This document shows positions 8,721 to 54,936 of a stretch of 64,000 nt of DNA, one piece after another. The first letter of the stretch is position 1. The number at the start of each line of letters is the position of its first letter. The notes beneath the pieces were generated by a model. That model was not told the origin of the DNA. It saw nothing but the letters and a program-made list of their open reading frames with translations, and ran no database searches. This DNA comes from an uncultured Bacteroidales bacterium (GTDB lineage Bacteria; Bacteroidota; Bacteroidia; Bacteroidales; Bacteroidaceae), in assembly GCA_902776455.1 (NCBI GenBank), contig CACYQI010000001.1, forward strand, positions 1 to 64,000. The letters are read 5' to 3'. A program made the position numbers and the translations under genes.

Positions 8721-8808
8721 TTGCTCCTTCATGTAGGAGCAATTGCTCCTTCATGTAAGAGCGATTGCTCCTACATGTAAGAGCAACGAACACAACGTGG
8801 AGCATCGG
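8721..8808. repeat. 22-bp tandem array (three palindromic units plus one CGTGGAG unit)
   Basis: Units start at 8721, 8743 and 8765, each 22 bp and near-palindromic, of the form TTGCTCCTNCATGTANGAGC. A fourth 22-bp block (8787-8808) belongs to the ACGTGGAGCATCGG family seen at other loci. It lies 64 bp upstream of the manC promoter. Confidence 0.85.
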
Positions 8809-8871
8809 CTGACGCTACTTGCCCCGAAGTTTCGTTTTTCAGCCGATAGCGCATTTTTTCTTATACTTTAT

Positions 8872-8902
8872 TTTGTCATAACGTTAAAAAATCTTATCTT
8901 TG
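8872..8902 (+). promoter_or_regulatory. manC promoter
   Basis: TTTG (8872-8875) and TATCTTTG (8895-8902) are separated by 19 bp, a near-ideal Bacteroidota promoter. The start near 8909 leaves a leader of about 20 nt before the ATG at 8929. This also decides the start codon, because an upstream in-frame ATG at 8743 lies before the promoter. Confidence 0.8.
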
Positions 8903-8928
8903 CAAATCATTTTTCAAAAGCATTCACA

Positions 8929-9996
8929 ATGGAGGGACACAATCATTTGGTTATCATGGCAGGCGGCGTGGGCAGCCGTTTCTGGCCGATGAGTACGCCG
9001 CAGCAGCCGAAGCAGTTCGTCGATGTCATGGGTTGCGGCAGGACATTAATTCAACTTACCTTTGACCGCTTCAAGAAAATCATCCCTGCGGAGAACACTT
9101 GGGTGGTGACTTCGGCAGCCTACGTCGGCATCGTCCGCGAGCAACTGCCTGAGATTCCCTGGAACCACGTGTTGCTCGAACCTTGCCGCAGGAATACGGC
9201 TCCCTGCATTGCCTACGCCAGCTGGCGCATCAAGTCGCAGGACACGAAGGCCAACATCGTGGTTACTCCGAGCGACGCTATCGTGATGGACGTCAACGAG
9301 TACCAGCGCGTCATCAAGTCGGCCCTGAAGTTCGTGTCCGAATCGGATGCTATGGTCACGCTCGGCATGAAGCCCAACCGCCCCGAAACCGGCTATGGTT
9401 ACATCCAAGCCGACCTCTCCTACTCCACCGCCCGCAATAAGGAAATCTTCCGCGTCGATTCGTTCAAGGAGAAACCCGACATCGATACGGCCAAACGCTA
9501 CATACAGAAGAACAACTTCTTCTGGAATGCAGGCATCTTCATCTGGAACGTCGGCACCATCGCCAACGCGTTGCGCGTCTATCAGCCCACGCTTTCGAAG
9601 ACCTTCGAGGACTTGCTTCCCCTCTATGGCACCGAGAAGGAGCAGGACGCCATCAACAAGGTGTTCCCCAAGTGCGAGAACATCTCCATCGACTACGCCA
9701 TCATGGAGAAGGCGGAAGAAATCTATGTCCTGCCGGCCAACTTCGGCTGGAGCGACCTCGGCACCTGGGGGTCCTTGCAGGAAAACACAGAGCGCGACAT
9801 CTACGGCAACGCCCTCTTCGGCAAGAACATCGACGTCTATGAGACCACCAACTGCATCATCCACGCCACTCAGGAGAAGCGTGTCGTGGTGCAAGGCCTC
9901 GACGGATACATCGTTGCAGAGTGCGACGACACCCTGCTCATCTGCCGCCTCGCCGACGAACAACGCATCAAGCAGTTCTCAGAGAAATCAGAATAA
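8929..9996 (+). CDS. manC: Mannose-1-phosphate guanylyltransferase
   Basis: Makes GDP-mannose from mannose-1-phosphate and GTP, the first step toward the GDP-fucose made by the next genes. The 355-residue protein opens with the nucleotidyltransferase signature [20 protein letters not shown] (residues about 10-29). It continues with [29 protein letters not shown] and [12 protein letters not shown], all family landmarks. No C-terminal phosphomannose isomerase domain follows, so it is the short monofunctional type. The ATG at 8929 is chosen because the promoter lies just upstream. A repeat spacer of 104 bp separates it from gmd. Confidence 0.93.
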
Positions 9997-10100
9997 TCAG
10001 AGCATTACGAGTTCTCCGAGCTTTCAGAGCACTCAGAATAATCAGACTCTCCGAGTTCTCCGAGTTTTCAGAGCACTCAGAAAAATCACAATCACCAGCA
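9997..10100. repeat. 44-bp direct repeat between manC and gmd
   Basis: GTTCTCCGAG, TTTCAGAGCACTCAGA and AATCA words recur with a 44-bp period, about two units. Related CAGAGTTCTCAGAA words follow the pyruvate:ferredoxin oxidoreductase gene (39425-39480). The reading frame of gmd is open through the repeat, but gmd itself starts at 10101. Confidence 0.7.
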
Positions 10101-11210
10101 ATGAACAACAACATCGCACTTATCACCGGCGTCACAGGACAGGACGGTTCCTACTTGTCGGAGTTCCTTCTCGCCAAAGGCTACGAGGTGCACGGCATCA
10201 TTCGCCGCAGCTCGGTTGACTACCGCGAGCGCATCGCACACCTCGAGGGCAAGCCTCATTTCCATCTGCACTATGCCGACATGGGCGACTCGATGTCGCT
10301 CGTCAAGCTGGTCGGCCTGGTTCAACCCACCGAAATCTACAATCTGGCAGCACAAAGCCACGTCCAAGTCAGCTTCGACGCCCCGGAGTTCACGGCCGAC
10401 GTGGATGCCGTAGGCGTGCTCCGCATACTCGAAGCCGTCCGAACCAACCATCTGGAGAAGACTTGCAAGGTGTATCAGGCATCCACCTCCGAACTCTACG
10501 GCAAGGTGGAAGAAGTGCCGCAGAACGAGAACACGCCTTTCCATCCCTACAGTCCCTATGCCGTCGCCAAGCTCTACGGCTTCTGGATCGTGAAGGAATA
10601 CCGCGAAGCATACGGCATGTTCTGCTGCTCCGGCATCCTCTTCAACCACGAGAGCGAGCGCCGAGGCGAGACGTTTGTCACCCGAAAGATTACCCTCGCC
10701 GCAGCACGCATCGCGCAGGGCAAACAGGAGAAGCTCTACCTGGGCAACCTCGACTCGTTGCGCGACTGGGGCTACGCCAAGGACTATGTGGAATGCATGT
10801 GGCTCATCCTGCAGCACGAGACACCCGAGGACTTCGTCATCGCCACAGGTGTACAGCACTCCGTCCGTGAGTTCACCGACCTCGCTTTCCGCCACGTCGG
10901 CATAGAACTCAAGTTCGAAGGAGAAGGCATCAACGAGAAAGGCATCTGCGTCGGCGGCCCCGAACATCTCGTCGGCAAGACGCTGGTCGAAGTTAGCGCA
11001 GACTTCTACCGTCCCACCGACGTAGTCAACCTCTGGGGCGACCCGACAAAAGCCAAGGCAAAGCTCGGCTGGAACCCCGCTAAGACCAGCTTCGAAGAGC
11101 TTGTCAAGCTGATGGTCGAGCACGACATGGGCAAAGTCGCAGCCGAAGGCGCTGCCGAAAAAGTCCGCACCAACCTCGCCGAATACCTCGAAAAAGGCAT
11201 CGTGAAGTAA
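10101..11210 (+). CDS. gmd: GDP-mannose 4,6-dehydratase
   Basis: Converts GDP-mannose to GDP-4-keto-6-deoxymannose, using bound NADP. The 369-residue short-chain dehydrogenase fold has the nucleotide loop [14 protein letters not shown] at residues 8-21, then IIRRSS. The catalytic YAVAK motif lies in [15 protein letters not shown], and [16 protein letters not shown] is typical of Gmd. Length is normal. The start is set at the ATG at 10101 because the frame upstream is repeat DNA. It sits between manC and fcl, completing the GDP-L-fucose route for fucosylated surface glycans. Confidence 0.95.
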
Positions 11211-11220
11211 GAGAACATCT

Positions 11221-11819
11221 AAAAACACGAAAGTAACGAACACATGTCTCTGCTCTACGCGACTGAGTCATACAAGATAACAGGCGCATTGTTCGAAGTT
11301 CATAAGGTGCTAGGGCCTGGACTTCTTGAGAAGGTCTATCAAGAGGCCTTAGAGAAGGAATTCAAGCTGCAAGGCATACCTTACGAGCGCGAAAAAGCAT
11401 TCTCCATCAATTATAAAGGAGAGGAACTTGAACAGAAATATGTGGCTGACTTTGTCTGCTATGGCAAAATCATAGTAGAGCTAAAGGCTGTAGAGGAGTT
11501 GTTGCCAGTACATACAGCCCAAGTCGTTAACTATCTCGCATTAACAGGCTACAAGCTTGGTCTGTTAGTAAACTTTAATGCACAACAGATAAAACCCGAA
11601 AGAATAGTTCGCTTTTAGGCTGTTTCGACAATTTTAAACATATAGATAAACGAAAGAAACTAAAAAGGAAGCAAGAGTATTAGGAACTACCGGAAAGATA
11701 TAAACATAGGAGGAAACGAAAGAAACTAAAATATATCAACGAATTTCGTGTTTTTCGATTCATTAATGCCTTTGAATGGATGAAACAAGAAAAGGAGAAT
11801 TGGTTTTTTTCGTGTTTTT
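11221..11819. repeat. Inverted AAAAACACGAAA repeats flanking the GxxExxY gene
   Basis: AAAAACACGAAA lies at 11221-11232, and its exact complement occurs at 11744-11755 and 11808-11819. A second direct repeat, AAACGAAAGAAACTAAAA, occurs at about 11648 and 11714. Together they bracket the GxxExxY gene and fill the 217-bp gap before fcl. No gene is seen in 11619-11835. Confidence 0.75.
11244..11618 (+). CDS. GxxExxY family protein
   Basis: A 124-residue protein with the defining motif GLLEKVY (residues 26-32, in VLGPGLLEKVYQEAL). The conserved tail VADFVCYGKIIVELKAVEELLPVHTAQVVNYLALTG resembles a PD-(D/E)XK nuclease-like core (VADF...IVELKA). The family's function is not established; it is frequent in Bacteroidota and often sits beside repeats. 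Here it interrupts the gmd-fcl pair and is flanked by inverted repeats, so it may have arrived as a unit. It could be co-transcribed with the fucose genes without a role in that pathway. Confidence 0.85.
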   Translation: MSLLYATESYKITGALFEVHKVLGPGLLEKVYQEALEKEFKLQGIPYEREKAFSINYKGEELEQKYVADFVCYGKIIVELKAVEELLPVHTAQVVNYLALTGYKLGLLVNFNAQQIKPERIVRF

Positions 11820-11835
11820 CGATGTTAAATAATAA

Positions 11836-12789
11836 ATGATTAAGATGTTTAGTAAGGACAGTAAAATTTATGTTGCAGGCCATCGGGGGATGGTCGGCTC
11901 CGCGATAGTGAGGGAACTGCAACGGCAGGGATACACCAACATCATCACAAGGACGCACAAGGAACTTGACCTGACCAGGCAGGAAGCCGTGGAGAAGTTC
12001 TTTGCCGAGGAGAAGCCCGAATACGTCTTCCTCGCGGCAGCGAAGGTGGGAGGCATCGTGGCAAACCAGTCCGCTTTGGCAGACTTCATGTACGACAACA
12101 TGGTGCTCGAGATGAACGTCATCCATGCAGCATGGAAGAACGGCTGCAAGAAGCTCGAGTTCCTCGGCAGCTCGTGCATCTATCCCCGCATGGCGCCGCA
12201 GCCCATGCCCGAGAGCTGTCTGCTGACAGGCGAGCTGGAGAAGACCAACGAAGCTTATGCTTTGGCCAAGATAAGCGGCTTGAAGTACTGCGAGTTCTTG
12301 AACCGTCAGTACGGAACGGACTATATCTCGGTGATGCCGACGAACCTCTACGGTCCCAACGACAACTATCATCCCGAGCACAGCCACGTGCTGCCGGCGC
12401 TGATACGGCGTTTCCACGAGGCCAAGGAAGCAGGCCTTGAGAGCGTGACCTGCTGGGGCGACGGCTCTCCGCTTCGCGAGTTCCTCTATGTCGATGACCT
12501 GGCCAACCTCTGTGTCTTCCTTATGAAGAACTACAGCGGCAACGAAACGGTCAATGCCGGCACGGGGAAAGAGCTGACCATCAAGGCGCTGACGGAGCTG
12601 GTGGCTAAGGTTGTGGGCTACAAAGGCAAGATTGAATGGGACACCACACGGCCGAACGGAACGCCTCGCAAGCTCCTCGATGTCTCGAAGGCTGCGGCTT
12701 TGGGCTGGACATACAAGACCGAGCTGGAGGACGGCATCAGGCTGAGCTACCAGGACTTCCTCAACAATCCGATGAGAGCCGAAAGATAA
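11836..12789 (+). CDS. fcl: GDP-L-fucose synthase
   Basis: Carries out the epimerase and reductase step from GDP-4-keto-6-deoxymannose to GDP-L-fucose. The 317-residue protein has the NADP loop [12 protein letters not shown] (about residues 14-25), the serine motif [15 protein letters not shown] and the catalytic YALAK, all matching the family. Two ATGs are possible (11836 and 11845); both leave the fold complete. The gene follows repeat DNA, and the xylanase gene starts 5 bp after its stop. Confidence 0.95.
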
Positions 12790-12793
12790 GTGT

Positions 12794-13831
12794 ATGAAAA
12801 AGCTGTTGCTCCTTCTCCTTTCCCTTATGACGCTACAGGGCTTTGCCCAAAGCCTTAAAGACGTCTTCGCAGGAGACTTCCTGATGGGCGTCTCGCTGAG
12901 CGGCCGCAATGTGCGCATCGATGCCGAGCAGGACCTCATCCGCAAGCACTTCAACAGCGTGACGTGCGAGAACGCCATGAAGCCCAGTTCGCTCCATCCC
13001 GCACCCGACGTTTGGCGATGGGACGAGGCGGACCGCATCGCCAACTTCTGTAGGCAGAACGGCATCAAGATGCGCGGCCACTGTCTCGTCTGGCACAATC
13101 AGTTCTCGGACTGGATGTACTACGACGACAAGGGCAACTTCGTGGACAAGGAGACCTTTTATGCCCGCCTCAAAGACCACATCCTGACGGTCGTGAACCG
13201 CTACAAGGATGTCGTCTATGCCTGGGACGTGGTGAACGAAGCCATGTCCGATGGCGGCGAGAACCCCTATCGTCAGTCCAAGCTCTACCAGCTCTGCGGC
13301 GACGAGTTCATCGCCAAGGCTTTCCAGTTTGCTCGCGAAGCCGACCCGAAGGCCATCCTCTTCTACAACGACTACAACGAGACGAACCCCCGCAAGTCGA
13401 GGAACATCTACGAGATGGTGCTGCGCATGCGTAGCAAGGGCGTGCCCATCGACGGCATCGGCATGCAGGGCCACTACAACATCTTCGGGCCGAGCGTCGA
13501 GGAACTCGAGGCCGCGCTCAGCCTCTACGCACCGCTTGTGGAGCACATCCACGTGACGGAACTCGACGTGCGGGCCAGCGAAGAGATGGGCGGACAGTTG
13601 AAGTTCGACCGAGAAGGCATTGCGATGACCGACACCATCCAAGCCCTTCACGCGCAGCAATATGAGCGTCTCTTCCAGACCTTCCGCCGCTTCCGCGACA
13701 AGATAGACTGCGTCACGTTCTGGAACCTGCACGACGGCTGTTCGTGGCTCGGCGAGAAAAACCATCCCCTCCTCTTCGACAAAACTCTCCAGCCCAAGCC
13801 CGCCTTCTTCAGAATCGTGGGGAAAGACTGA
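12794..13831 (+). CDS. Secreted GH10 endo-1,4-beta-xylanase
   Basis: A 345-residue enzyme predicted to cut the xylan backbone outside the cytoplasm. The N-terminus is a signal peptide (MKKLLLLLLSLMTLQGFAQS). GH10 motifs follow: NAMKPSSLHP, RGHCLVWHNQ, the acid/base in WDVVNEAM (Glu149) and the nucleophile in HVTELDV (Glu256). The domain is single and compact, with no carbohydrate-binding module or SusD-type neighbour. It begins 5 bp after fcl and may be co-transcribed with it, although the two roles are unrelated. Confidence 0.93.
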   Translation: MKKLLLLLLSLMTLQGFAQSLKDVFAGDFLMGVSLSGRNVRIDAEQDLIRKHFNSVTCENAMKPSSLHPAPDVWRWDEADRIANFCRQNGIKMRGHCLVWHNQFSDWMYYDDKGNFVDKETFYARLKDHILTVVNRYKDVVYAWDVVNEAMSDGGENPYRQSKLYQLCGDEFIAKAFQFAREADPKAILFYNDYNETNPRKSRNIYEMVLRMRSKGVPIDGIGMQGHYNIFGPSVEELEAALSLYAPLVEHIHVTELDVRASEEMGGQLKFDREGIAMTDTIQALHAQQYERLFQTFRRFRDKIDCVTFWNLHDGCSWLGEKNHPLLFDKTLQPKPAFFRIVGKD

Positions 13832-14331
13832 ACGAGGCATCCTTTCTTCCCGAAAAACCCTTACATCATTTGACGCCCCTTGCAGCCCTTTCGAGGGCCT
13901 CTGCATGGTGCGCGATTCGACGCTCCACGTTGCGTAGGCCGATGCTCCACGTTGTGTTGCCTTTTCCTCCACGTTAACTTTCCCCTTTCAACTCTCAATT
14001 TTCAATTTTAAACTTTGTTCTGTATGACGGTATGCCATGTCGTCCAGATACTTTCTTAACACAGCCCTGCTAAACGCCCCTTTGCAACCAATTGAAAGTC
14101 AAAGCCCATTCGATTTAAGGCCATTTTAGGGCTTCGGTGGACCAAAGTGCCGCCGCGCCAAAAAGAAGCCGTCAGAACGCGTGTCGTTGCGAAAAGACTT
14201 GACAAAACCACCACGTAATGCTTGTTTTCAGGAAGAATGGGCTTAGAGCGTTACGCACGCCAAGTTGTTCGTCAAACCCCGTTTAAGCGAAATTATTCTC
14301 CTTTCTTCATCCTTCATTCTTCATTTTTTTG
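13832..14331. repeat. Gene-free spacer holding composite repeat element, copy A
   Basis: Three CTCCACGTT-type units with a 22-bp period begin at 13919, 13941 and 13963. They run directly into a conserved body ending near 14207. Body landmarks in order are TCAATTTTCAA, ACTTTCTTAACA, CGGTGGACCAAAGTGCC, GCCGTCAGAACG and TTGCGAAAAG. The same order occurs at 54654-54936 on this strand and at 28708-29008 and 39545-39852 on the other strand. Nothing else is seen before the promoter at 14332. Confidence 0.8.
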
Positions 14332-14339
14332 TATCTTTG
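14332..14339 (+). promoter_or_regulatory. -7 box for the metallophosphoesterase gene
   Basis: TATCTTTG lies 42 bp before the ATG at 14382. No clear -33 TTTG is present. Confidence 0.55.
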
Positions 14340-14381
14340 CACGCGATATAAAGTACACATTACTGAATTAAAGGTTATTCC

Positions 14382-16559: not shown

Positions 16560-16714
16560 AAAGCCTCACCCCTAATCCCTCTCCGCGTTAAGGGGTTAGA
16601 GGTTAGGGGTTAGAGGTTAGGGAACACCATCACCCACAGCTATCCTCTTACCACTAACCTCTAACCACCAACCACCTATAAGGGTCCAATAAATGGTAAA
16701 TGATAAATGATTAA
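16560..16714. repeat. GGTTAGAGGTTAG-type repeats
   Basis: GGTTAGAGGTTAGGGG words and their complement CCACTAACCTCTAACC lie about 60 bp apart and could fold back on each other. AAATGGTAAATG repeats then run into the first ATGs of pyrE. The same word families recur at 8400-8490. Confidence 0.65.
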
Positions 16715-16729
16715 ATGGTAAATATGATG

Positions 16730-17368: not shown

Positions 17369-17430
17369 CTTCCTTCCAAAGGGAAGGATATAAATGGTAA
17401 ATGGTTAAATGATTAAATGGTAAATGCAAG

Positions 17431-17910: not shown

Positions 17911-18014
17911 AAACAATTCACAATTCATAATTCATAATACTATAGCACGCCCCAGAGAGCGAGGGCAAGAGAGGCAATGATGAATTATGAATTATGAATT
18001 AATAATTATGAATT

Positions 18015-19349
18015 ATGCAAAAGTTGTGGGACAAAGGATATGAGCCGACGGCGGAGATAGAGCGCTTCACCGTCGGACGCGACCGCGAGATGGACATGTA
18101 TCTGGCTGAGGCCGACGTGCTTGGCTCGATGGCGCACATCACCATGCTCGAGAGCATCGGGCTTCTCGAGAAAGACGAACTGCAAGCCTTACTGGCTGAG
18201 CTGCGGAACATCCTCGCGGAGATACGCGAGGGACGCTTCACGATAGAGGACGGCATAGAGGACGTACACTCGCAAGTTGAGCTGATGCTGACCCGTCGGC
18301 TGGGCGACATGGGCAAGAAGATACACTCCGGCCGCAGTCGCAACGACCAGGTGTTGGTGGACCTCAAGTTGTTCATCCGCAAGCAGCTACGCCTCGTGGC
18401 AGAGGACGTCAAGAGTCTCTTCATCGAGCTGCAGCAGCAGAGCGAACGATACAAAGGCGTGCTGATGCCAGGCTACACGCATCTGCAAGTGGCGATGCCC
18501 AGTAGCTTCGGCCTTTGGCTGGGTGCTTACGCCGAGAGTCTCGTGGATGACCTCGTCTTCCTCCAAGCCGCCTACCGCATCACGAACCGCAACCCGCTCG
18601 GCTCGGCCGCTGGCTACGGCTCGTCGTTCCCCTTGAACAGGACGATGACGACCGAGTTGCTGGGCTTCGACTCGCTCGACTACAACGTGGTCTATGCCCA
18701 GATGGGACGTGGAAAGACGGAGCGCAACGTGGCCTTCGCCTTGGCCGGAATAGCAGGAACCGTCAGCAAGCTGGCCTTCGACGCCTGCCTCTTCAACAGC
18801 CAGAACTTCGGTTTCATCAAGCTTCCGAAGGAGTGTACGACCGGCTCGAGCATTATGCCGCACAAGAAGAACCCCGACGTCTTCGAGCTGACACGCGCCA
18901 AGTGCAACAAGCTCCAGGCTCTGCCTCAGCAGGTTACGCTCATCATGAACAACCTGCCCAGCGGCTACTTCCGCGACCTCCAAATCATCAAGGAAGTCTT
19001 CCTGCCCGCCTTCCAAGAGCTGCGCGACTGCCTGCAGATGGCCACCTACATCATCCATCGCCTCGAAGTGAACGAGCACATCCTCGACGACCCGCGCTAC
19101 GACCTCATGTTCTCCGTGGAGGAAGTCAACCGCCTCGCCTCCGAAGGGATGCCCTTCCGCGATGCCTACAAGAAAGTCGGGCTTGACATCGAGGCCGGCA
19201 AGTTCGTTCCGAGGAAGGAAGTACGCCACAGCCACGAAGGCAGCATCGGCAACCTCTGCACGAAAGAGATAGCTACTCTCTTCGAACAAACATGGAGCAA
19301 TTTCCGCTTCGAGAAGGCGGAAGAAGCCGAGGCGAAATTAGGGGGCTAA
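18015..19349 (+). CDS. argH: Argininosuccinate lyase
   Basis: Splits argininosuccinate into arginine and fumarate, the last step of arginine synthesis. The 444-residue protein carries the fumarase/aspartase signature GSSIMPHKKNPD near residue 276, plus GRSRNDQVLVD and GYTHLQVAMP. Length is slightly short but within the family. The ATG at 18015 directly follows a GAATTATGAATT repeat spacer. No other arg gene is in the window. Confidence 0.95.
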   Translation: MQKLWDKGYEPTAEIERFTVGRDREMDMYLAEADVLGSMAHITMLESIGLLEKDELQALLAELRNILAEIREGRFTIEDGIEDVHSQVELMLTRRLGDMGKKIHSGRSRNDQVLVDLKLFIRKQLRLVAEDVKSLFIELQQQSERYKGVLMPGYTHLQVAMPSSFGLWLGAYAESLVDDLVFLQAAYRITNRNPLGSAAGYGSSFPLNRTMTTELLGFDSLDYNVVYAQMGRGKTERNVAFALAGIAGTVSKLAFDACLFNSQNFGFIKLPKECTTGSSIMPHKKNPDVFELTRAKCNKLQALPQQVTLIMNNLPSGYFRDLQIIKEVFLPAFQELRDCLQMATYIIHRLEVNEHILDDPRYDLMFSVEEVNRLASEGMPFRDAYKKVGLDIEAGKFVPRKEVRHSHEGSIGNLCTKEIATLFEQTWSNFRFEKAEEAEAKLGG

Positions 19350-19351
19350 AA

Positions 19352-19450
19352 ACACTCCACGGAGAATCGGCTTACACTCCACGGAGAATCGGCTCACACT
19401 CCACGGAGAATCGGCTCACACTCCACGGAGCATCGGGCTACGCTCCATGC
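19352..19450. repeat. 22-bp tandem array, four and a half units
   Basis: Units ACACTCCACGGAGAATCGGC plus two variable bases start at 19352, 19374, 19396, 19418 and 19440, exactly 22 bp apart. Each holds the dyad CTCCACGGAG. The array begins three bases after the argH stop and lies 34 bp before the next gene. Confidence 0.9.
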
Positions 19451-19483
19451 TGTGTGGGACGACACAACATCAAGGAACAAGAA

Positions 19484-20041: not shown

Positions 20042-20062
20042 CACACTTCAGCGACAACGAAC

Positions 20063-28040: not shown

Positions 28041-28563
28041 CCGTTCTGGCGGATTTGTAATCCGACAGGACTGAGTGTAAGCATTTGTAATGCTTACAAC
28101 AAATGTGGGGATTGTAAATCACTAAACTCCATACGAGCGGATTGCAAATCCGCTCGAACAAGGGAACATATATAATAATGTCCCCACCCCTACCCCCTCC
28201 CCTTCGAGGGGAGGGGAAAGGAAGTTGAGGCCTCTCGCCCGTTCTGGCGGATTTGTAATCCGACAGGACAGAGGTTAAGCATTTGTAATGCTTTCAACAA
28301 ATGTGGGGATTGTAAATCCCTAAACTCCATACGAGCGGATTGCAAATCCGCTCGAACAAGGGAAACTTATTTAGCCCACCCTAACCCCTACAAAGCCTCT
28401 CCTAAATCCTCCCCTAAAGGGAAGGACTTCTTGCGCTAAGCACCCCGTTCTGGCGGATTTGTAATCCGCCAGGACTGAGTATAAGCATTTGTAATGCTGT
28501 AGGCGAATGTTGGGATTGTAAATCCCTTTACTCTATACGAGCGGATTGCAAATCCGCTCGAAC
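28041..28563. repeat. Three copies of a four-hairpin repeat
   Basis: Copies lie at 28041-28165, 28239-28363 and 28445-28563. Each holds four short palindromes about 30 bp apart: GGATTTGTAATCC, GCATTTGTAATGC, GGGATTGTAAATC(CC) and GAGCGGATTGCAAATCCGCT. Spacers between copies carry CCCTCCCC...GGGGAGGG words. There is no credible gene in 27654-29234; short open frames here are repeat-derived. Confidence 0.85.
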
Positions 28564-28707: not shown

Positions 28708-29008
28708 TTTTTGTCAGAACTTTTCGCAATGGGGCGCGTTCTGACGGCGTTTTATTGCTTCTGTGGCACTTTGGCCCACCGAAGGTGGGAAATGGGCTTA
28801 TTTTGAATGACAGCTGGGAATCAATGGGTTAGAAAGGAGTGTTTTGTCGAGGAGGGTTAAGAAAGTATGTGGTCGGTATGACATGCCGACAAACGGAACA
28901 AAGATTGAAGTTGAAAATTGAAAGTTGAAAGGGGAAAGTTAACGTGGAGGAAAGGGCGATGCTCCGTGGAGCGTCGGCTTACACAACGTGGAGCGTCGAA
29001 AAGGATGG
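28708..29008 (-). repeat. Composite repeat element, copy B
   Basis: On the minus strand the order is a 22-bp array (GTGGAG words at 28944, 28966 and 28988) followed by the conserved body. The body carries TTCTTAACC, GGTGGGCCAAAGTGCC, GCCGTCAGAACGCG and TTGCGAAAAGTTCTGACA, ending near 28708. Same architecture as the copies at 13919, 39545 and 54654. Confidence 0.8.
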
Positions 29009-29149
29009 CACGCGGAGGTGGAGATTGCCCTACGGAGAGGAGGGAAATCATGTCGTGGATTTTCGGGCACAAAAAGAAGGGGAAAGACTTAGCCACATCA
29101 TTCCGATGGAAGGGAAAGGCTTCACAAAGACGTGACAAGTGCCATCAAG

Positions 29150-32375: not shown

Positions 32376-32419
32376 ACATTATATATTATATAATATGTTA
32401 TTGGGGTTGCCGTTTTACA

Positions 32420-32507
32420 CAACGTGGAGCGTAGCCCGATGCAACGTGGAGCGTAGGCCAATGCTCCACGCTGTGTAAGCCGATGCTCCACGGAGCGTGA
32501 ACCCCTG
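32420..32507. repeat. 22-bp tandem array with an internal inversion
   Basis: Units start at 32420, 32442, 32464 and 32486. The first two carry CAACGTGGAGCGTAG and the last two CTCCACG, so the core flips orientation without breaking the 22-bp phase. It fills the gap between the kinase and isomerase genes. Confidence 0.85.
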
Positions 32508-39525: not shown

Positions 39526-39544
39526 AACTACCGCTCCCCTGCTC

Positions 39545-39852
39545 TTTTTGTCAAAAACTTTCGCAATCGGACACTCTCTGGCGGCCTTTTTTTGCTTCGG
39601 TGGCACTTTGGAACCCAAAACACAAGAAATGGCCTTAAATCGAATCTGCGGTGATAATCAACGACTTACAAAACCGCTTTTTTCGACTGAATGTTAAGAA
39701 GGTATCGTTCCTGCTTGCAACAATAGCAAACAACGCATACTTTCAAGTCAAAAATGCCGTTTCGGGATAGTGAAAACAACACAGGGCATCGGCCAACACA
39801 ACGTGGAGTATCGGCCAACACTGCACGCAGCATCGACCAACACCCCACGCCA
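39545..39852 (-). repeat. Composite repeat element, copy C
   Basis: On the minus strand a 22-bp array (units at 39787, 39809 and 39831, of the form CATCGGCCAACACAACGTGG) precedes, after about 80 bp, a shorter body at 39545-39705. The body keeps TTCTTAACA, TTCCAAAGTGCC, GGCCGCCAGAG and TTGCGAAAGTTTTTGACA. This is the most diverged copy. Nothing else is seen between the nifJ terminator and the promoter at 40082, apart from CGGATTTCACGGATTT words near 39985. Confidence 0.75.
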
Positions 39853-40081
39853 AGTCATCCAACGCCCCTGTAAATGTCAATTTTCTCTGTCAAGATATTT
39901 CGGCAATTCAATGTTCGGAGAAAACAACCTTATTAAGGAGGAATTTGTCAAAGCACAACAGAAATAATGAAACAACGGATTCTACGGATTTCACGGATTT
40001 AAGTTACATTAGTATTCAGCATATAGAGTAGCTTCTGAAAATTAGCTTTGTTATCAGAACACACCTTAATAGCTTCCTTTC

Positions 40082-40112
40082 TTGTGTATTTCAACAAAAA
40101 ATCGTAACTTTG
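40082..40112 (+). promoter_or_regulatory. Promoter for the GH92 gene
   Basis: TTG (40082-40084) and TAACTTTG (40105-40112) with 20 bp between. The expected start near 40119 precedes the ATG at 40133. Confidence 0.7.
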
Positions 40113-40132
40113 CGGACGGAAAAGGCCACGAG

Positions 40133-46704: not shown

Positions 46705-46749
46705 AGTATCAGATATTAGCATAGCAAACCGAAAAACCTAGAATTCAAA

Positions 46750-47409: not shown

Positions 47410-47426
47410 CCCTGTCAGCAAGCTTC

Positions 47427-47828: not shown

Positions 47829-47875
47829 AACCTTTGCTTTTAAGAGTTCAACAATTCTGTTTCTTGTTTCTGCTG

Positions 47876-47883
47876 CAAAGGTA
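47876..47883 (-). promoter_or_regulatory. -7 box for the small exported protein
   Basis: TACCTTTG on the minus strand, 47 bp before the ATG at 47828. Confidence 0.65.
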
Positions 47884-47939
47884 CGTCGTTTCTGCCAGAC
47901 GCGACGGATGCTTTTCCCTATTTCGACAGAGGGATTTCC

Positions 47940-48833
47940 CTATGGCTTGGAGGGATTGGGGGAAGAGAGCCGTACGACGCGGATGCCGGTCTGGCTGGGA
48001 TGCTTCTGCATGTACTGGTAGAGCGTCATGGGTTCGAGCACCACTTTCTTATGTATGCTGCTGGCGTTGAGGAGATGCAGCTTGCCGTCCTTCCCCCAAA
48101 CAGCGAAACCTACATGAGCGATGTCGAGGCCTTTCTTGTTGGTCGTGATGGCGATGATGTCGCCGTCGCGTATGTCGGAAAGCACGGCCTTGCTCTCCCC
48201 TACCCTTTCCTTGGGAATGTAGCGAATGGTGGCACCCGAGGCGCGTCTCTCCATTTCGGCTATGAGGCGCCGCTCCTCTATGTTCTCCTTTAGCAGAGGG
48301 TACGACTGCGGATGTTCGCTCATGTAGGTCAGACTGAGCTTCATCGGCACCGACAGGTTCTCCTTCGGCACCACTTCGCGAACAAGTCCTTGCTTCGTGC
48401 CCGACTGAATCCATTGGCTGAAGTAGTGGTTGCGGCTCTTGTAGCCGTCTATCTTTCCGTCCTGATAGCGAAGCTTCCGAAGCCAGGAGAGGTAGTCAGC
48501 CCAGCGCTTGCCGCCGCGACTGGTCGTGAGTGCCAAGGCACAGACCGTCTCTACGAGTGTCGTGCAGTCGAGGCTCTGCAGGTTCACGGCAAGATGCTCC
48601 TCCTTGTCCTTTATCTCCAAGGTGTGAGCCACATAGGGGCGGTTCATCAATTGCTTCGCATAGTAGAGCGTCATGCATTCGCCATTTGACCATTTGCCAT
48701 TAGCCATCTCCTTTGCGCCCTTCTGCAAGAGTTCTACGACGCGGAGGCTGTCTTCGCGAGTATAGCTGACGGGCTGCTCTGCAAAGGCAGGCAACATATA
48801 TAATAAGGTAAAGATAAAAGCAATCTGTTTCAT
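47940..48833 (-). CDS. DUF1460 amidase/peptidase, exported
   Basis: 297 residues with a signal peptide (MKQIAFIFTLLYMLPAFA). The NlpC/P60-like catalytic pattern is visible: Cys in QSLDCTTLVETV and His in DIAHVGFAVWG. The family hydrolyses peptidoglycan peptides or acts as an N-acetylmuramoyl-alanine-amidase-like enzyme. I use the ATG at 48833; the frame extends to a TTG at 48848. The segment EMANGKWSNGE before CMTLYYAKQLM is a short repeat insertion. An AmpG-like importer lies upstream on the same strand, so the two fit a murein-fragment recycling pair. Confidence 0.85.
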   Translation of the reverse strand: MKQIAFIFTLLYMLPAFAEQPVSYTREDSLRVVELLQKGAKEMANGKWSNGECMTLYYAKQLMNRPYVAHTLEIKDKEEHLAVNLQSLDCTTLVETVCALALTTSRGGKRWADYLSWLRKLRYQDGKIDGYKSRNHYFSQWIQSGTKQGLVREVVPKENLSVPMKLSLTYMSEHPQSYPLLKENIEERRLIAEMERRASGATIRYIPKERVGESKAVLSDIRDGDIIAITTNKKGLDIAHVGFAVWGKDGKLHLLNASSIHKKVVLEPMTLYQYMQKHPSQTGIRVVRLSSPNPSKP

Positions 48834-48919
48834 ATCGAAGTTCTGCAAGCTCTGCTTATATTGTAGGGGAAAGGAGATGGAACTTGGTATAGGCGTTCAC
48901 CTCATTAGGACTATCATTT

Positions 48920-49004
48920 TTTATCACGTGTGAGAAATCGATTTATCACTGGTGAGAAATCAATTTATCACTGGTGAGAAATCAATTTATCACGTATGAG
49001 AAAA
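48920..49004. repeat. 22-bp phased array of four near-palindromic sites
   Basis: Units start at 48920, 48942, 48964 and 48986, each of the form TTTATCACTGGTGAGAAAT followed by CAA or CGA. The core TCACTGGTGA is a perfect dyad; outer units have TCACGTGTGA and TCACGTATGA. The array lies between ampG-like and DUF1460 genes on the leader side of DUF1460. The rest of 49005-49145 holds CCTTAGGG-type repeat words and no gene. Confidence 0.85.
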
Positions 49005-49145
49005 AAGAACCTTCCTTCCCCTTATAACAAGCGGAACTTAAAATCAAATCTCATTAAACATTTAGCAGCCTCCTCTGAATCGTCCCTTAGGGAAAGAGTT
49101 CGGGAGAGGATTGAAAGGTGAGGGCTGTAGTAAACTACTCATTCT

Positions 49146-50423: not shown

Positions 50424-50495
50424 CTGATGATTTATTAGAGTTTCGTAGTTGCGGTATGTTGGCTTCGACTGAAGAGTAGAGGTGTTCCAACACAA

Positions 50496-50528
50496 CACAC
50501 GGCATCGTCTGAAACGACGTGCCGTGTG
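50496..50528 (-). terminator. Hairpin downstream of tRNA-Ser
   Basis: CACACGGCA and TGCCGTGTG form the outer stem, with GTC/GAC pairing inside around TTTCA. On the minus strand it follows the tRNA by about 22 bp and is followed by TTGTGTT. A terminator or processing hairpin is likely, but the T-run is weak. Confidence 0.5.
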
Positions 50529-50550
50529 AACTTTTACTTTCTTCTTTTGC

Positions 50551-50636
50551 GGAGAGACTGGGATTCGAACCCAGGGTACCCGTAAGAGTACGCCGCATTT
50601 CGAGTGCGGTCCATTCGACCACTCTGGCATCTCTCC
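50551..50636 (-). tRNA. tRNA-Ser (anticodon CGA)
   Basis: On the minus strand the 7-bp acceptor stem GGAGAGA / TCTCTCC is closed by discriminator G. The anticodon loop reads CTCGAAA, giving CGA, which decodes UCG. A long variable arm (GTACTCTTACGGGTACC) and the T-arm GGGTTCGAATCCC confirm a class II serine tRNA. CCA is not encoded. Open frames crossing this gene on the minus strand are therefore artefacts. Confidence 0.95.
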
Positions 50637-50685
50637 TTTCTGTTTGCGACTGCAAAATTACAACTTTATTTCGAACTATGCAAAT

Positions 50686-51609
50686 CTAAACGAAGAAAAG
50701 TGATGCTCCGGCTACTGCAATGATGGCCCCGACGATTTCCTGCATGCTTACTTTCTTGCCGAAAATCTGTCGGGAAGGCCACAGAATGAGGACTGGAGTA
50801 AGGGACATCAGCGTCTGCGCCACGCCTGTATTCGTCATGCTTACAGCCAGCAGACTGAAGCTGACGCCGAAGAAAGGGCCGAGCAGGACGGCACCCATGG
50901 CAGCAGCCGCACCGCGAAAGTCAGTTGCTGCACGGAAGAACTGACCGAGCTTGCGGGCAAGCAGGAGCGATGCGCCGAAGGCAAGAAGCCCCATCAAAGC
51001 ACGTATCTGCGTCCCGGCAAAAGGCATCATCGAGGCAACATCGGTGGCTTCGGGAGGACAGGAAGCAGCATAGTGCAACATGCCTTGCTTGCTGAGGACG
51101 AGACCCACGCCTTGTCCCAATCCGGCCCCGATGCCAAGCAGGATGCCACGAAGCGGCAAAGCGACATGGCGACTGCCCGAATCGTCCTTGCCCAAGATGG
51201 AGATGCCGATGCCTGTCAGCGTGACCATCATGCCGAGCAGGCCAAGCGTTCCCATCGTTTCGCCCATCAGGAGCCATGCGGTGATGGCAGCGAAGGGGCA
51301 GCCAAGCGTCATGAAAAGCTGAGCATAGCGACTGCCGATGACGACGTAGGCATTGAACAGACAGTAGTCGCCGAAGACGAAGCCCATGAAGCCGCTGGCC
51401 AAGAACCACTTCCACACTTCGGGCGTGGTGTGCTGCGGCCAAGGACGACCGCAAGTCACCCATAGCAGACAGCCAAGAAGGACGATGGTAAGAACCATGC
51501 GCCAAACGTTGAGCACCAGCGTACCCATGCGCTTGCTCGCTATCTCTGCAAAGATGGCCGTGAAGGTCCACATCACAGCCACAAGAAGTGAAAGCAGTTC
51601 GCCGGTCAT
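50686..51609 (-). CDS. EamA/DMT-family transporter
   Basis: 307 residues, about ten membrane helices in two EamA halves (ELLSLLVAVMWTFTAIFAE; later MGAVLLGPFFGVSFSLLAV). Drug/metabolite-type exporters of this class move amino acids, nucleobases or other metabolites; substrate is not readable. It lies downstream of the nucleosidase gene on the same strand, separated by a short repeat. Confidence 0.85.
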   Translation of the reverse strand: MTGELLSLLVAVMWTFTAIFAEIASKRMGTLVLNVWRMVLTIVLLGCLLWVTCGRPWPQHTTPEVWKWFLASGFMGFVFGDYCLFNAYVVIGSRYAQLFMTLGCPFAAITAWLLMGETMGTLGLLGMMVTLTGIGISILGKDDSGSRHVALPLRGILLGIGAGLGQGVGLVLSKQGMLHYAASCPPEATDVASMMPFAGTQIRALMGLLAFGASLLLARKLGQFFRAATDFRGAAAAMGAVLLGPFFGVSFSLLAVSMTNTGVAQTLMSLTPVLILWPSRQIFGKKVSMQEIVGAIIAVAGASLFFV

Positions 51610-51658
51610 AAGGACTTTAGGGACTTTAAGGACCTTAAGGACTTTAAGGTCTTTAAGG
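51606..51658. repeat. AAGGACTTTAAGG micro-repeat
   Basis: About five imperfect 9-10-bp units of GGACTTTAA / GGACCTTAA fill the gap between the nucleosidase and EamA genes and overlap the EamA start. The same words are coding (LKDLKDLKD) in the gene ending at 27653. Confidence 0.75.
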
Positions 51659-51659
51659 A

Positions 51660-52349
51660 TTAGATTTTGCTTAGGAACTCTTTGGTGACGCTGAAGCTTT
51701 TGTCGGCCATTGTGTCCCAGAAGTTGAGGTATTGCTCAAAGTGAGCATCTACTCCGGGCGTGTCGCTGATGATGCGGAAGCTGAGGAAAGGTACACCCCA
51801 GAGGTGGCAGACCTGAGCGATGGCTGCGCTTTCCATATCAACGGCCATGCCTTCAGGGTACTTCTCCTTGATGACGTTCAGCTCTTCGCGGTTGGTGATG
51901 AACTGGTCGCCTGTGCAGATAAGTCCGGGCACGACGCGGATGTCGGTCTTCAAGGATGTGGCAGCAGAGACGAGCTGCTTATCGCCGTCGAAGAACCTGG
52001 GCAGGCCTTGCACCTGTCCTGGGTCGTAGTTGTCGCCGCAAATGACGTCGTGATAGCAAACCTCTTTGCCGATGACGATATCCATCACATTGAGTTTCGC
52101 ATCGATGCCGCCTGCTGCACCTGTCGAGATGACGTAATCGGGATGGAACGTCAAGATGAGGTTCGTCACGCCCGAAGCAGCGTTGGCCTTGCCGATGCCG
52201 CATTGCAGCAGAACAACCTTGCTCTCACCCATTTTGCCTACCAGGAACTCCTGCGGACCTGACTGCACCGTCTCTGTCTCGCTGAGCATGGCAGCCACAT
52301 GACGGTACTCGATATTCATCGCCGTCAATACTCCTATTGTCTTTTGCAT
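51660..52349 (-). CDS. mtnN: 5'-methylthioadenosine/S-adenosylhomocysteine nucleosidase
   Basis: Cleaves adenine from MTA and SAH, recycling by-products of methylation and polyamine synthesis. The 229-residue protein has GIGKANAASG, STGAAGGIDAKL, GDQFI and the catalytic VDMESAAIAQVCH plus FRIISDTPG. The ATG at 52349 (MQKTIGVLTAM) fits the family start; a TTG two codons earlier is also open. Promoter box 25 bp upstream. Confidence 0.92.
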   Translation of the reverse strand: MQKTIGVLTAMNIEYRHVAAMLSETETVQSGPQEFLVGKMGESKVVLLQCGIGKANAASGVTNLILTFHPDYVISTGAAGGIDAKLNVMDIVIGKEVCYHDVICGDNYDPGQVQGLPRFFDGDKQLVSAATSLKTDIRVVPGLICTGDQFITNREELNVIKEKYPEGMAVDMESAAIAQVCHLWGVPFLSFRIISDTPGVDAHFEQYLNFWDTMADKSFSVTKEFLSKI

Positions 52350-52373
52350 AATCAATTATGATGATTTTTGCTG

Positions 52374-52381
52374 CAAAGGTA
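52374..52381 (-). promoter_or_regulatory. mtnN -7 box
   Basis: TACCTTTG on the minus strand, preceding the ATG at 52349 with a short leader. It is back-to-back with the regulator promoter at 52426. Confidence 0.65.
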
Positions 52382-52425
52382 CGAAAAAGATTAGAGAATA
52401 AGGATTAAGGATGAAAGTTTTTTTG

Positions 52426-52433
52426 TATATTTG
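52426..52433 (+). promoter_or_regulatory. -7 box abutting the Fur-family gene
   Basis: TATATTTG ends 5 bp before the ATG at 52439. Transcription beginning 6-7 bp downstream would start at or next to the start codon, predicting a leaderless or nearly leaderless message. Confidence 0.55.
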
Positions 52434-52438
52434 CAGAC

Positions 52439-52882
52439 ATGAAATACAATTCTACGCTATGTGAGGCTCTGCTTGAGTCGCACGAGATAAAGCCAACAGC
52501 CAACCGCATCCTTGTGCTCCGCACGTTGGCAGAAGCCCGACAACCATTGTCGCTCAGCGAGTTGGAGTGCGAAATGCTGTCTGTCGATAGGTCGAGCGTG
52601 TTCCGAGTGCTGACGTTGTTCCGCGAGCATCACCTTGTGCATGTGCTCGAGGACGGGAGCGACAGCGTCCGCTACGAGCTGTGCCACAGCACCGACGGCC
52701 ACGAGCACGACGACGACCAGCACGTTCACTTCTACTGCGAACAGTGCCAGCAGACGTTTTGCATCACCGACGTGCCCATTCCTACCGTCAGTTTGCCCGA
52801 CGGATACGTGCTGGAAAGCGTCAACTATATGGCAAAAGGGCTTTGTCCCCGATGTGCTTTGAGGAAAGAAAAAGGCCGATAA
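52439..52882 (+). CDS. Fur-family metal-responsive repressor
   Basis: 147 residues. The winged-helix start (KPTANRILVLRTLAEARQP; DRSSVFRVLTLFREHHLVHV) and the metal region HEHDDDQHVHFYCEQC...LCPRC are typical of Fur/Zur proteins. Two CxxC pairs would hold structural zinc, and the His-rich loop the sensing site. The adjacent efflux permease and the TGCAAC/GTTGCA dyad between them suggest zinc or copper control. Zur-type is my best guess, but Fur and PerR types cannot be excluded. Confidence 0.85.
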   Translation: MKYNSTLCEALLESHEIKPTANRILVLRTLAEARQPLSLSELECEMLSVDRSSVFRVLTLFREHHLVHVLEDGSDSVRYELCHSTDGHEHDDDQHVHFYCEQCQQTFCITDVPIPTVSLPDGYVLESVNYMAKGLCPRCALRKEKGR

Positions 52883-52890
52883 TCAACCTT

Positions 52891-52905
52891 TGCAACCCAG
52901 TTGCA
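52891..52905. promoter_or_regulatory. Candidate operator dyad TGCAAC-CCA-GTTGCA
   Basis: A perfect 6-3-6 inverted repeat between the Fur-family gene and the efflux permease. It overlaps the region where the permease -33 element should be (box TACCTTTG at 52918-52925). Position and symmetry suit a repressor site for the neighbouring regulator; binding is inferred. Confidence 0.5.
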
Positions 52906-52917
52906 CGAAATCCTTCG

Positions 52918-52925
52918 TACCTTTG
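52918..52925 (+). promoter_or_regulatory. -7 box for the efflux permease
   Basis: TACCTTTG, 32 bp before the ATG at 52958. The -33 region is poor (TTG at 14 bp), which is compatible with a regulated promoter. Confidence 0.65.
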
Positions 52926-52957
52926 CAGCGCAAAACATAAACAATACAATATATAAT

Positions 52958-54328
52958 ATGGTACTTGAATGGATTGAACAATACTGGGAGGCTCTGCTTC
53001 TGATGACAGCCGAGATGGCTCCCTATCTGCTTTTGGGTTTCTTCATTGCAGGCATTTTGCGTGTGTTTGTGCCGCGCAGTTTGTACTCCCAACACCTTGC
53101 CAAGCCTGGCATGAAGAGCGTGGTGAAGGCCGCTGCTCTTGGCATTCCCCTGCCGCTTTGCTCGTGCGGCGTCATCCCGACGGCTGTGGGGCTTCGCAAG
53201 GAAGGTGCCAGCCACGGAGCCTGCACCAGCTTCCTGATTGCTACGCCGCAGACGGGTGTCGATAGCATCGCCGCCACCTATTCCCTCATGGGCCTGCCTT
53301 TCGCTATTGTGCGCCCACTTGCTGCTCTGTTCACGGCTATGTTCGGCGGATGGCTGGTCAGCAAGTATGCCCATGAGAATAAAGAGGTTGTGGCCGACGT
53401 CACCTGCGACGACGACTGCTGCCACTGCCACGACGAGAGCGAGAGCAAAGGAAAAAACTTCGCAGGGAAACTGAAGGAGGCTTTCTCCTATGCTTTTGTG
53501 GAGATGATGGAGGACGTGGGCAAATGGCTTGTCGTAGGCTTGCTCATTGCAGCACTCATCACGGTGGCTGTGCCTAACGATTGGCTGGCAGCACTCCACG
53601 ACTACAAGCTGCTGAACATGCTTATCGTGCTTGCCATCGCCATTCCGATGTACGTCTGCGCCACGGGCAGCATCCCTATCGCTGTGTCGCTGATGGCTAA
53701 AGGCTTGACACCTGGTGCAGGCCTGGTACTGCTGATGGCAGGTCCTGCCGTCAACACGGCCTCGATGCTGGTCATCGGCAAGGTCTTCGGAGGGCGCACG
53801 CTCAAGCTCTACCTCCTCTCCATCGTCGTCGGAGCCATGCTCTTCGGACTTGGCATCGACTATCTGCTGCCGCAGGAGTGGTTTGCCGTGCAGAGCGGCA
53901 TAACAGAGTCTGCCTGCCACGAGGAAGGCATCGGCCTCTTCTCCTACATCTGCACAGCCCTGCTGATCATATTCCTGCTGAATGCGCTTCTGCTTAGCCA
54001 CCATCATCACCACCACCATCACGAAGAACATAAAAAGACCCCCTCTAACTCCCCATCTAGGGGGAGAATATTAGGCAAGGAAAGCCTCCCCATAGAGGGA
54101 GAGGTTTGGAGAGGGTCTGAGATCTCTGTTACCATCGAGGGCATGAACTGCAGCCATTGTGCCGAGAGCGTCAGGCGGGCGATTGCCGCAGTGGAAGGCG
54201 TGGAGAGCGTGGAAGTGTCGCTCCACGAAGGCAAGGCCTACATCGTCGGTTCGCCCGATGAGGCCGAGGTACACAGCGCCATAGAAAGCATCGGGTTCAG
54301 AGTGAAGAGTGAAGGCTTCCACTCCTAG
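52958..54328 (+). CDS. SO_0444-type Cu/Zn efflux permease with C-terminal HMA domain
   Basis: 456 residues. Helices carry GIPLPLCSCGVIPTA (CSCG near residue 67) and PMYVCATGSIPIAVSL, hallmarks of the permease family linked to metal efflux. A cytosolic CDDDCCHCHDE loop (about 150) and an eight-histidine run (HHHHHHHHEEH) could bind metal. After a repeat-derived linker (54034-54120, TPSNSPSRGRILGKES) a heavy-metal-associated domain follows with GMNCSHCAESV near 394. The Fur-family gene directly upstream supports metal-controlled expression. Confidence 0.87.
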   Translation: MVLEWIEQYWEALLLMTAEMAPYLLLGFFIAGILRVFVPRSLYSQHLAKPGMKSVVKAAALGIPLPLCSCGVIPTAVGLRKEGASHGACTSFLIATPQTGVDSIAATYSLMGLPFAIVRPLAALFTAMFGGWLVSKYAHENKEVVADVTCDDDCCHCHDESESKGKNFAGKLKEAFSYAFVEMMEDVGKWLVVGLLIAALITVAVPNDWLAALHDYKLLNMLIVLAIAIPMYVCATGSIPIAVSLMAKGLTPGAGLVLLMAGPAVNTASMLVIGKVFGGRTLKLYLLSIVVGAMLFGLGIDYLLPQEWFAVQSGITESACHEEGIGLFSYICTALLIIFLLNALLLSHHHHHHHHEEHKKTPSNSPSRGRILGKESLPIEGEVWRGSEISVTIEGMNCSHCAESVRRAIAAVEGVESVEVSLHEGKAYIVGSPDEAEVHSAIESIGFRVKSEGFHS

Positions 54329-54697
54329 CCTCCCTCTAGGTGAAAGGGCTTGGTGCTGAAGAATACAGACCCCACCCCTACCCCCCCAGCCCCCTCCCAT
54401 CCTCCCCCGAGGGGGAGGGGCTTGTGACGTCGGAGAGAGGGAAGTCCGCCGCGGCCCCCTCCCCTTGGAGAGAATAGACCCCACCCCTAACCCCTCCCCT
54501 TGGAGGGGAGGGGAAGGGAGGGGGCTTTCTCCTTTGGCTCCTTGGCTCCGTAGTGATTTAGTTCAAGAAGGGGAAGCGAACCGAAAAACCTTGACAGGAT
54601 TTTGTACTGCGGCGAGGGGGATTGGACGATGCGGCTGGGGAAGATTTCTGATGCTACGTGGAGCATCGGGCTACACTACGTGGAGCGTCAGATGATG
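54329..54697. repeat. C/G-rich palindromic repeat spacer
   Basis: Several CCCTCCCC...GGGGAGGGG words, including CCTCCCCCGAGGGGGAGG near 54402 and CCCCTCCCCTTGGAGGGGAG near 54490. The final part contains 22-bp units (54654, 54676) that open composite element copy D. No gene is present. Confidence 0.75.
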
Positions 54698-54936
54698 CTC
54701 CACGTTGAATTTCCACTCTCAACTTTCAATTTTCAACTTCATTCTTTGTTCCGTTTGACAGCACTGTGTGCAGTCCCTATACTTTCTTAACAGCACTCTG
54801 AAAAACGCGCCCTTGCAAGTGGCTGGTTATCAGCGGCGATTAAAAATAAGGCCTTTTCCCGCATTCGGTGGACCAAAGTGCCACAGAAGCGAAAAAAGGC
54901 CGTTAGAACGAGGCAAGATGCGAAAAGTTTTGACAT
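54698..54936 (+). repeat. Composite repeat element, copy D
   Basis: Follows 22-bp units at 54654 and 54676. Body landmarks: TCAACTTTCAATTTTCAAC, ACTTTCTTAACA, CGGTGGACCAAAGTGCC, GGCCGTTAGAACG and TGCGAAAAGTTTTGACA. Downstream (54937-55031) a diverged GCGGAGTACAATTCC hairpin of the type at 28041 is present and no gene. Confidence 0.8.

Follow-up and report, generated by a model that had tools for sequence, protein, structure and literature searches.

We report that eight short tandem arrays in a 64,000-nucleotide stretch of DNA from an uncultured Bacteroidales bacterium (the window; contig CACYQI010000001.1, assembly GCA_902776455.1) share a unit spacing of 22 bp, although their units belong to three sequence families (A, B and C). 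Catalogues of intergenic repeats in bacteria are usually built on sequence; here, the spacing is conserved and the sequence is not, both within the genome and between species, which makes the constraint directly readable. We put the probability at about 0.5 that these arrays are docking platforms for one or more co-evolving DNA-binding proteins and that they spread like repetitive extragenic palindromes (REP) or miniature inverted-repeat transposable elements (MITE). The source assembly (3.39 Mb in 94 contigs, 87% complete; labelled G000) was sampled as the window plus 40 other stretches, together 859 kb or 25% of the genome. G labels denote genomes, and L labels denote sampled stretches.

An earlier note on this DNA had described the eight arrays with an exact 22-bp period, and this spacing was recovered at all eight places. 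Tandem Repeats Finder (TRF) called a period of 22 bp in five of them, at 8721-8786 (3 units), 19352-19436 (4 units), 32420-32464 (2 units), 48920-49003 (4 units) and 39776-39843, the last being the weakest with 3 units and a 73% match. The arrays at 13919, 28944 and 54654 were missed by TRF, and each consists of three exact cores spaced 22 bp apart. All cores lie on the minus strand at 13919 and on the plus strand at 28944, while those at 32420 (++--) and 54654 (++-) flip in phase about the dyad, as the earlier note had also seen. Scoring similarity at a lag of 22 bp (16/20 bases) returned eight clusters in the window compared with none in 30 first-order Markov shuffles; one of these, at 47902-47943, is marginal and was missing from the earlier list. 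The eight arrays are not independent, however, since those at 13919, 28944, 39787 and 54654 have approximately 300 bp in common (blastn) and form the left end of copies of a dispersed element of about 357 bp, termed E357.

In the 859-kb sample, 22 bp is the second commonest tandem period after 7 bp. When the best TRF call per locus was taken, 187 arrays were counted at 7 bp, 98 at 22 bp, 52 at 14 bp, 50 at 9 bp, 18 at 21 bp and 2 at 23 bp. The period of 22 bp is thus strongly over-represented in this quarter of the genome, where the earlier note had set a broad spread of periods against its own proposal. TRF reported insertions or deletions (indels) in 11 of the 98 arrays, versus 51 of 140 at other periods between 15 and 60 bp (Fisher p 1e-5). 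Thirteen of the 98 belong to E357 copies and the other 85 lie outside. According to gene calls from a simple model of our own, 92 are intergenic, three lie within predicted genes and three at stretch edges. Among gaps of at least 150 bp, an array is present in 20/41 convergent, 13/53 divergent and 46/153 co-directional ones (convergent vs divergent, Fisher p 0.018).

The phase of the units can be followed most closely in family B, for which a 19-base pattern with up to three mismatches gave 257 matches in G000 and only one with the reversed pattern as control; 24 other genomes of the genus yielded 0-3 matches each. Among same-strand neighbours within 70 bp, 210 of 222 cores are spaced 22 bp apart, the remainder lying at 44 bp (seven), 20 bp (two) and 9, 15 and 30 bp (one each). 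For opposite-strand neighbours within the same distance, the dyad centres are 22 bp apart in 24 of 26 cases, with one at 25 and one at 44 bp; spacings of 21 or 23 bp were not found among neighbours within 70 bp. Orientation flips therefore keep the 22-bp phase. Column frequencies show two dyads within the unit, one in the core and one in the linker, 11 bp from each other. Compared over 22 bases, adjacent units share 17.2 identities on average, non-adjacent units of the same array 16.8 and units of different arrays 15.0, which indicates that duplication or homogenisation inside arrays does occur. Stand-alone arrays with at least three cores most commonly span four units (29/58). A 22-bp lattice running through whole intergenic regions is unsupported: six core pairs sit 9-30 bp apart at distances other than 22, and in L033, adjoining arrays meet at a core distance of 16 bp, as judged by eye.

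E357 was found in 42 copies in the sample (blastn) and extends from CCGAAAAnnnnTGACA to TGCGAAAAnTTTTGACAAA, with conservation falling off sharply at either end. In 38 copies stacked in register, the mean pairwise identity is 64% and indels are very few, a scarcity that is partly by construction because the stack was picked by landmarks to the right of the anchor; of the four remaining copies, those in L045, L192 and L194 have modules shifted by 1 base, and that in L195 is cut by the end of the stretch. The left motif, which played no part in the choice of copies, lies at the expected offset in 36 copies and at +1 in two; the array unit is found at offset 0 in 31 and at +22 in seven, and a motif near -15 is in place in 31. 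In a different set of 38 copies, measured from an internal anchor, exact family B cores occur jointly at -122, -100 and -78 in 27, and the landmarks at +66, +94, +120 and +138 are in place in 35, 30, 30 and 32, respectively. The motif CGAAAAnnnnT(G/T)ACA is present at both ends of the element in direct orientation, 339 bp apart, and no inverted ends were seen by eye. A coding origin was rejected, since any single frame is open in at most two of the 38 copies. Likewise, no consensus RNA fold was obtained for the right 166 columns in 33 copies (-0.44 kcal/mol, zero compensatory pairs). The covariation seen in E357 seems to reflect mainly a division into subfamilies.

Relatives were searched for E357 with a sequence model of its right part (33 copies), scoring at most the 47 best candidates per genome. 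The element was found in 8 of 36 other genomes of the genus (G005, 17 matches; G012, 2; G013, 24; G020, 16; G024, 3; G043, at least 47; G051, 20; G052, 8) and in none of 24 genomes from other families; the counts for G043 and G000 are lower bounds because of the limit of 47 candidates. In the 12 best matches in relatives, the genome span equals the model span (by eye), while the matches G043:C3 and G005:C48 have unequal spans, so indels do exist in the E357 of relatives. For a comparison of the array position, 15 of 21 loci from relatives passed the filter, the six that were dropped including all three from G013. Autocorrelation in the array segment was highest at lag 22 in G000 (38 copies), G043 (4), G020 (3), G051 (3) and G005 (2). 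Although the array units of these five genomes differ by species, their leading palindrome centres occupy common offsets, 11 bp from each other (drawn from -133, -122, -111, -100, -89 and -67). All relatives compared except G052, i.e., four of five, hold a 22-bp array with other units at this position.

The same spacing recurs outside E357. In samples of 100-300 kb per relative, arrays of 22 bp with other sequences are present in G016, G017, G011 and G043. When five genomes of the genus are pooled, 22 bp accounts for 53 arrays, 21 bp for 18 and 23 bp for 6, compared with a single 22-bp array in 420 kb from five genomes of other families. Of 81 genomes of the genus, 16, including G000, contain the tandem frame of family A (TTGCT-N4-CATG-N4-AGCAA, searched as a pair with up to two mismatches), and none of the 81 contains the reversed pattern. 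The interiors of these units vary between species, and some are common to G000 and G052. Examination of family A junctions on both strands of eight genomes, allowing both longer and shorter gaps, showed 378 in frame (none of them in G043). CATG lies 3 bases later in nine further junctions and 3 bases earlier in 16; we read these shifts as another centre within an in-frame unit, and three of them at G087:C84 are spaced 22 bp apart. The clear departures are two, one with CATG 1 base earlier (G043) and one with 10 bases between units (G020). Units of 22 bp of the AACGTGGA type in L097 (RUG11599) were among the matches listed for a short pattern, which are mostly chance-like. In addition, family C-like stretches of 56-95 bp occur at three other sampled loci.

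The pitch that stays constant while the sequence diverges, the in-phase flips, the small number of indels and the lack of any shared reading frame or RNA structure lead us to infer that the geometry of the DNA is read by a protein. Protomers of a DNA-binding protein, or of a small family of such proteins, would bind cooperatively side by side every 22 bp, which is about two helical turns, and hence on one face of the DNA. In the main families, the unit consists of two roughly inverted 11-bp half-sites, an arrangement that places symmetry axes every 11 bp and makes the unit reversible without a change of pitch. Arrays would serve either alone, mostly with four units, or as one end of E357, which looks like a larger, indel-poor nucleoprotein scaffold. 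Sites and protein would co-evolve, so that loci and unit middles differ between species; the conserved frame with its varying interiors suggests that the reader protein changes specificity. New loci would be reached by duplication and spread in the manner of REP or MITE repeats. If the docking reading holds, there should be a DNA-binding protein or machine whose footprint is 22 bp and whose specificity changes. Regarding the earlier proposal that the spacing is under selection, the conserved spacing itself stands, as seen in the in-phase flips, the E357 offsets that stay fixed at 64% identity and the family A junctions, and selection may be its cause. A broader form of this reading, in which a rigid E357 scaffold and several site families without relation to one another make up a genus-wide 22-bp module bound by fast co-evolving, polymerising proteins that select against indels other than 22 bp, appears doubtful to us. 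If true, much of the intergenic DNA of the genus would run on this module.

Several observations weigh against protein docking. No cognate binding protein or candidate was identified, and docking leaves unexplained why unrelated repeats of 44-198 bp follow multiples of 22. None of five arrays is shared across species within conserved gene neighbourhoods, which is equally compatible with dispensable repeats. The 22-bp arrays differ less in indels from heptamer repeats (41/239 with indels at a period of 7 or 14, 4/22 at 21-42), and indels were called in 8/28 arrays at larger multiples of 22. The conservation spectrum of E357 has a peak at approximately 13.5 bp in the right part, while one near 21.5 bp in the array part falls short of significance (p 0.16); no significant 11- or 22-bp peak is present. 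In G052 (three copies), the best lag in E357 is 21, and the leading palindrome centres lie off the shared offsets. G004 contains three 23-bp arrays and two of 22 bp, and of the arrays in G011, four have a period of 22 bp and two a period of 23 bp. Finally, exact palindromy is not general among the 22/23-bp units. By a crude score applied to TRF consensus units, six of seven pairs are formed in 14/100 units of G000 (shuffled, 7%), 0/23 of G043, 2/12 of G016 and 2/6 of G011, with higher values in G017 (6/11) and G004 (4/5).

The arrays amount to a natural experiment that sets selection on nucleoprotein geometry against a duplication ruler as the source of repeat spacing. If the lineage duplicated DNA in 22-bp steps regardless of sequence, as the earlier note had also considered, the arrays would be a by-product. 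Exact multiples of 22 account for 28 of the 66 arrays with a period of at least 30 bp (nominal p ~1e-20), each other residue class holding at most three, and many of them, with periods of 44, 66, 88, 132, 176 and 198 bp, lie in unrelated sequences. The share is still 23/61 after removal of five arrays judged to be family B, and it is 8/24 in five relatives (nominal p 7e-6), where several of the eight are double or triple 22-bp units; these binomial p values are nominal because repeats within one family are not independent. With family B masked, the mean autocorrelation is 18.3 at lags divisible by 22 compared with 3.2-5.8 for other residues, long arrays being counted several times. The greater likeness of units within an array points the same way. 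However, duplication cannot invert a unit in phase, and nearly all opposite-strand neighbours are in phase; the spacing is also fixed in the non-repetitive parts of E357, and 7- and 9-bp repeats thrive in G000 too. We further count against a ruler that, to our knowledge, no enzyme makes duplication steps of 22 bp. The multiples of 22 in unrelated repeats and the likeness of units speak for the ruler that the earlier note had suggested, the in-phase flips speak against it, and we regard a ruler as the origin of the arrays as quite unlikely.

Alternatively, the arrays may be selfish or neutral, non-autonomous repeats similar to REP or MITE, whose architecture is set by the transposase that recognises them and which bring no benefit to the host. 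Their dispersal, their intergenic position in 92 of the 95 arrays off stretch edges, the preference for convergent gaps, the near restriction of family B to G000, the unshared positions and the common four-unit span all agree with this, and BrickBuilt of Porphyromonas gingivalis is a precedent for a MITE with a 23-nt minisatellite (PMC4596501). Against it stands the distribution of the Y1 (RAYT-type, REP-associated tyrosine) transposase family PF01797, which was matched in 6 of 24 other genomes of the genus and had no match in the array-bearing G004, G011 and G016, an absence that is not certain because the genomes of the genus are 61-92% complete; in G000, three weak matches were found (best 2.3e-5). 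Moreover, the E357 end motifs are direct instead of inverted, a scan for target-site duplications returned just the terminal motif (end identity 10.26/16 within a copy and 10.36 between copies), and no longer relative with E357 ends flanking a bigger insert turned up in a module scan of the 859 kb. Altogether, a selfish or neutral origin without host benefit seems rather unlikely. The arrays could also act as RNA hairpins in transcripts, e.g., as terminators or in 3' end protection, a role with which the convergent-gap preference would agree. Fold z scores against shuffles are -9.8 (8721), -5.2 (32420), -4.7 (48920), -5.3 (54654) and -2.4 (19352), and -7.9 and -7.8 for two arrays of G017, but +0.1 (39787), -0.9 (13919), -1.7 (28944), -1.5 (L032) and +3.1 (L207 of G016). 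Since folding is inconsistent between arrays, the right part of E357 lacks a consensus fold and hairpins do not in themselves require a fixed pitch, this function is very unlikely to explain the arrays.

Protein-bound 22-bp sites lying side by side occur in the R6K iterons and the TnsB sites of Tn7, and also at the Mu ends. By analogy, these would be comparable, with the difference that they are located at an origin or at the ends of an element and have a known protein, whereas the present sites are spread over hundreds of chromosomal loci and have no known protein. The nearest described case that we found is BrickBuilt of Porphyromonas gingivalis, which is likewise intergenic and multi-copy; its 23-nt units follow each other without spacers between a leader and a tail, its ends are small inverted repeats, and strain ATCC 33277 has 19 copies (PMC4596501). 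The repeats described here have a direct terminal motif and a 22-bp unit instead, fall into several families, number hundreds of units and vary in their units across the genus. REP, bacterial interspersed mosaic elements (BIME) and REP doublets forming hairpins (REPIN), which carry GTAG or CGTC tags, are also short, palindromic, intergenic, dispersed and at times clustered (PMC3733652). In contrast, our arrays keep a 22-bp pitch, have no GTAG in family C or in family A of several species, and are inconsistently accompanied by RAYT. By eye, family C and the family A units of G016, G018 and G043 have no GTAG/CGTC tag, and family B linkers and family A of G000 have it in part. Assignment to REP/RAYT was rejected on the tag and on the lack of a consistent Y1 transposase. 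E357 resembles MITE in its dispersed non-coding copies of defined length, 42 in 859 kb, and was not assigned to them because terminal inverted repeats and a target-site duplication are missing. The arrays are not CRISPR (clustered regularly interspaced short palindromic repeats), as the family B linkers are themselves repeated instead of unique spacers. Structured RNA found no support either, as no Rfam match lies at the window arrays and no consensus fold was obtained for the right part of E357; the sole window match at gathering threshold is a tRNA (RF00005, 50550-50636, minus strand). TAACTGA heptamer repeats of Beggiatoaceae are similarly abundant, short, intergenic and direct (PMC4679880), but with their 7-bp unit they are closer to the 7-bp repeats of G000 than to its 22-bp arrays. 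A previous description of the 22-bp array pattern was not found in the open-access papers searched, most subscription papers lying outside this search.

The coordinates of the arrays, the E357 copies and the neighbouring repeats are collected in Table 1, including the 44-bp repeats that the earlier note had placed near 8247 and 10010.

Table 1. Repeat features located in the window (positions of the 64,000-nucleotide stretch).
Feature	Position	Strand	Basis and remarks
44-bp tandem repeat	8230..8382		TRF; TTACCAT heptamers and CCCCCTAAAGGGGG, no relation to families A-C
Family A array of three near-palindromes, 22 bp each	8721..8786		TRF; frame TTGCT-N4-CATG-N4-AGCAA
Lone family B unit	8790..8811	+	Pattern match 8792-8810, 1 mismatch; adjoins family A array
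44-bp tandem repeat	9974..10088		TRF; built over 9-bp CTCAGAATA-type repeat
E357 copy	13850..14206	+	blastn, stack, terminal motif; starts ~19 bp past stop of predicted gene 12794-13831
Family B array inside E357, three cores	13916..13981	-	Core spacing of 22 bp
Stand-alone family B array, four units	19348..19441	-	TRF, lag-22, cores; directly past stop of 18015-19349
198-bp (9 x 22) tandem repeat	28041..28563		TRF; 2.6 copies
E357 copy	28710..29066	-	Element comparison, core spacing; array ~28933-28998 (+++)
Stand-alone family B array, four units	32413..32501		TRF, cores; ++--, phase retained
E357 copy	39547..39903	-	TRF, element comparison; degenerate array 39776-39843
Family C array, four units	48918..49004		TRF; TTTATCACtgGTGAGAAATCAA-type units
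E357 copy	54581..54937	+	Element comparison, core spacing; array ~54647-54712 (++-)

A second locus with a unit nearly identical to that of the 44-bp repeat at 8230-8382 is present in L179. Close by, positions 8403-8490 of the window hold a self-complementary dispersed repeat of ~87 bp (GGTTAGAGG ... CCTCTAACC), near 4 x 22 bp, with matches in L036, L186, L192 and others. A C/G-rich palindromic dispersed element of the CCCCTAACCCCTCCCCTTGGAGGGGAGGGG type was observed at 54361-54520 and 28181-28210 of the window and at 14532-15152 of L191, and it also occurs as 44- and 176-bp tandem repeats. The weak Y1 transposase matches mentioned above lie at G000:C22:29657-29866, C11:10606-10770 and C76:724-876, and a family B unit lies ~600 bp away from the one in C22. 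CRISPR-like arrays were noticed in L219 (4684-5681; G017) and L170 (11516-12581; G004), with repeats such as TAATTTCTACTATTGTAGAT that presumably resemble those of the Cas12a type. Repeats of 7 bp (AATTATG, TTACCAT and GGTTAGA types) are located at 1712-2430, 16591-16723, 57428-57480 and 58099-58162 of the window, and in the 859-kb sample, 69 of 260 repeat arrays of period 7 and periods 14-35 lie within predicted genes.

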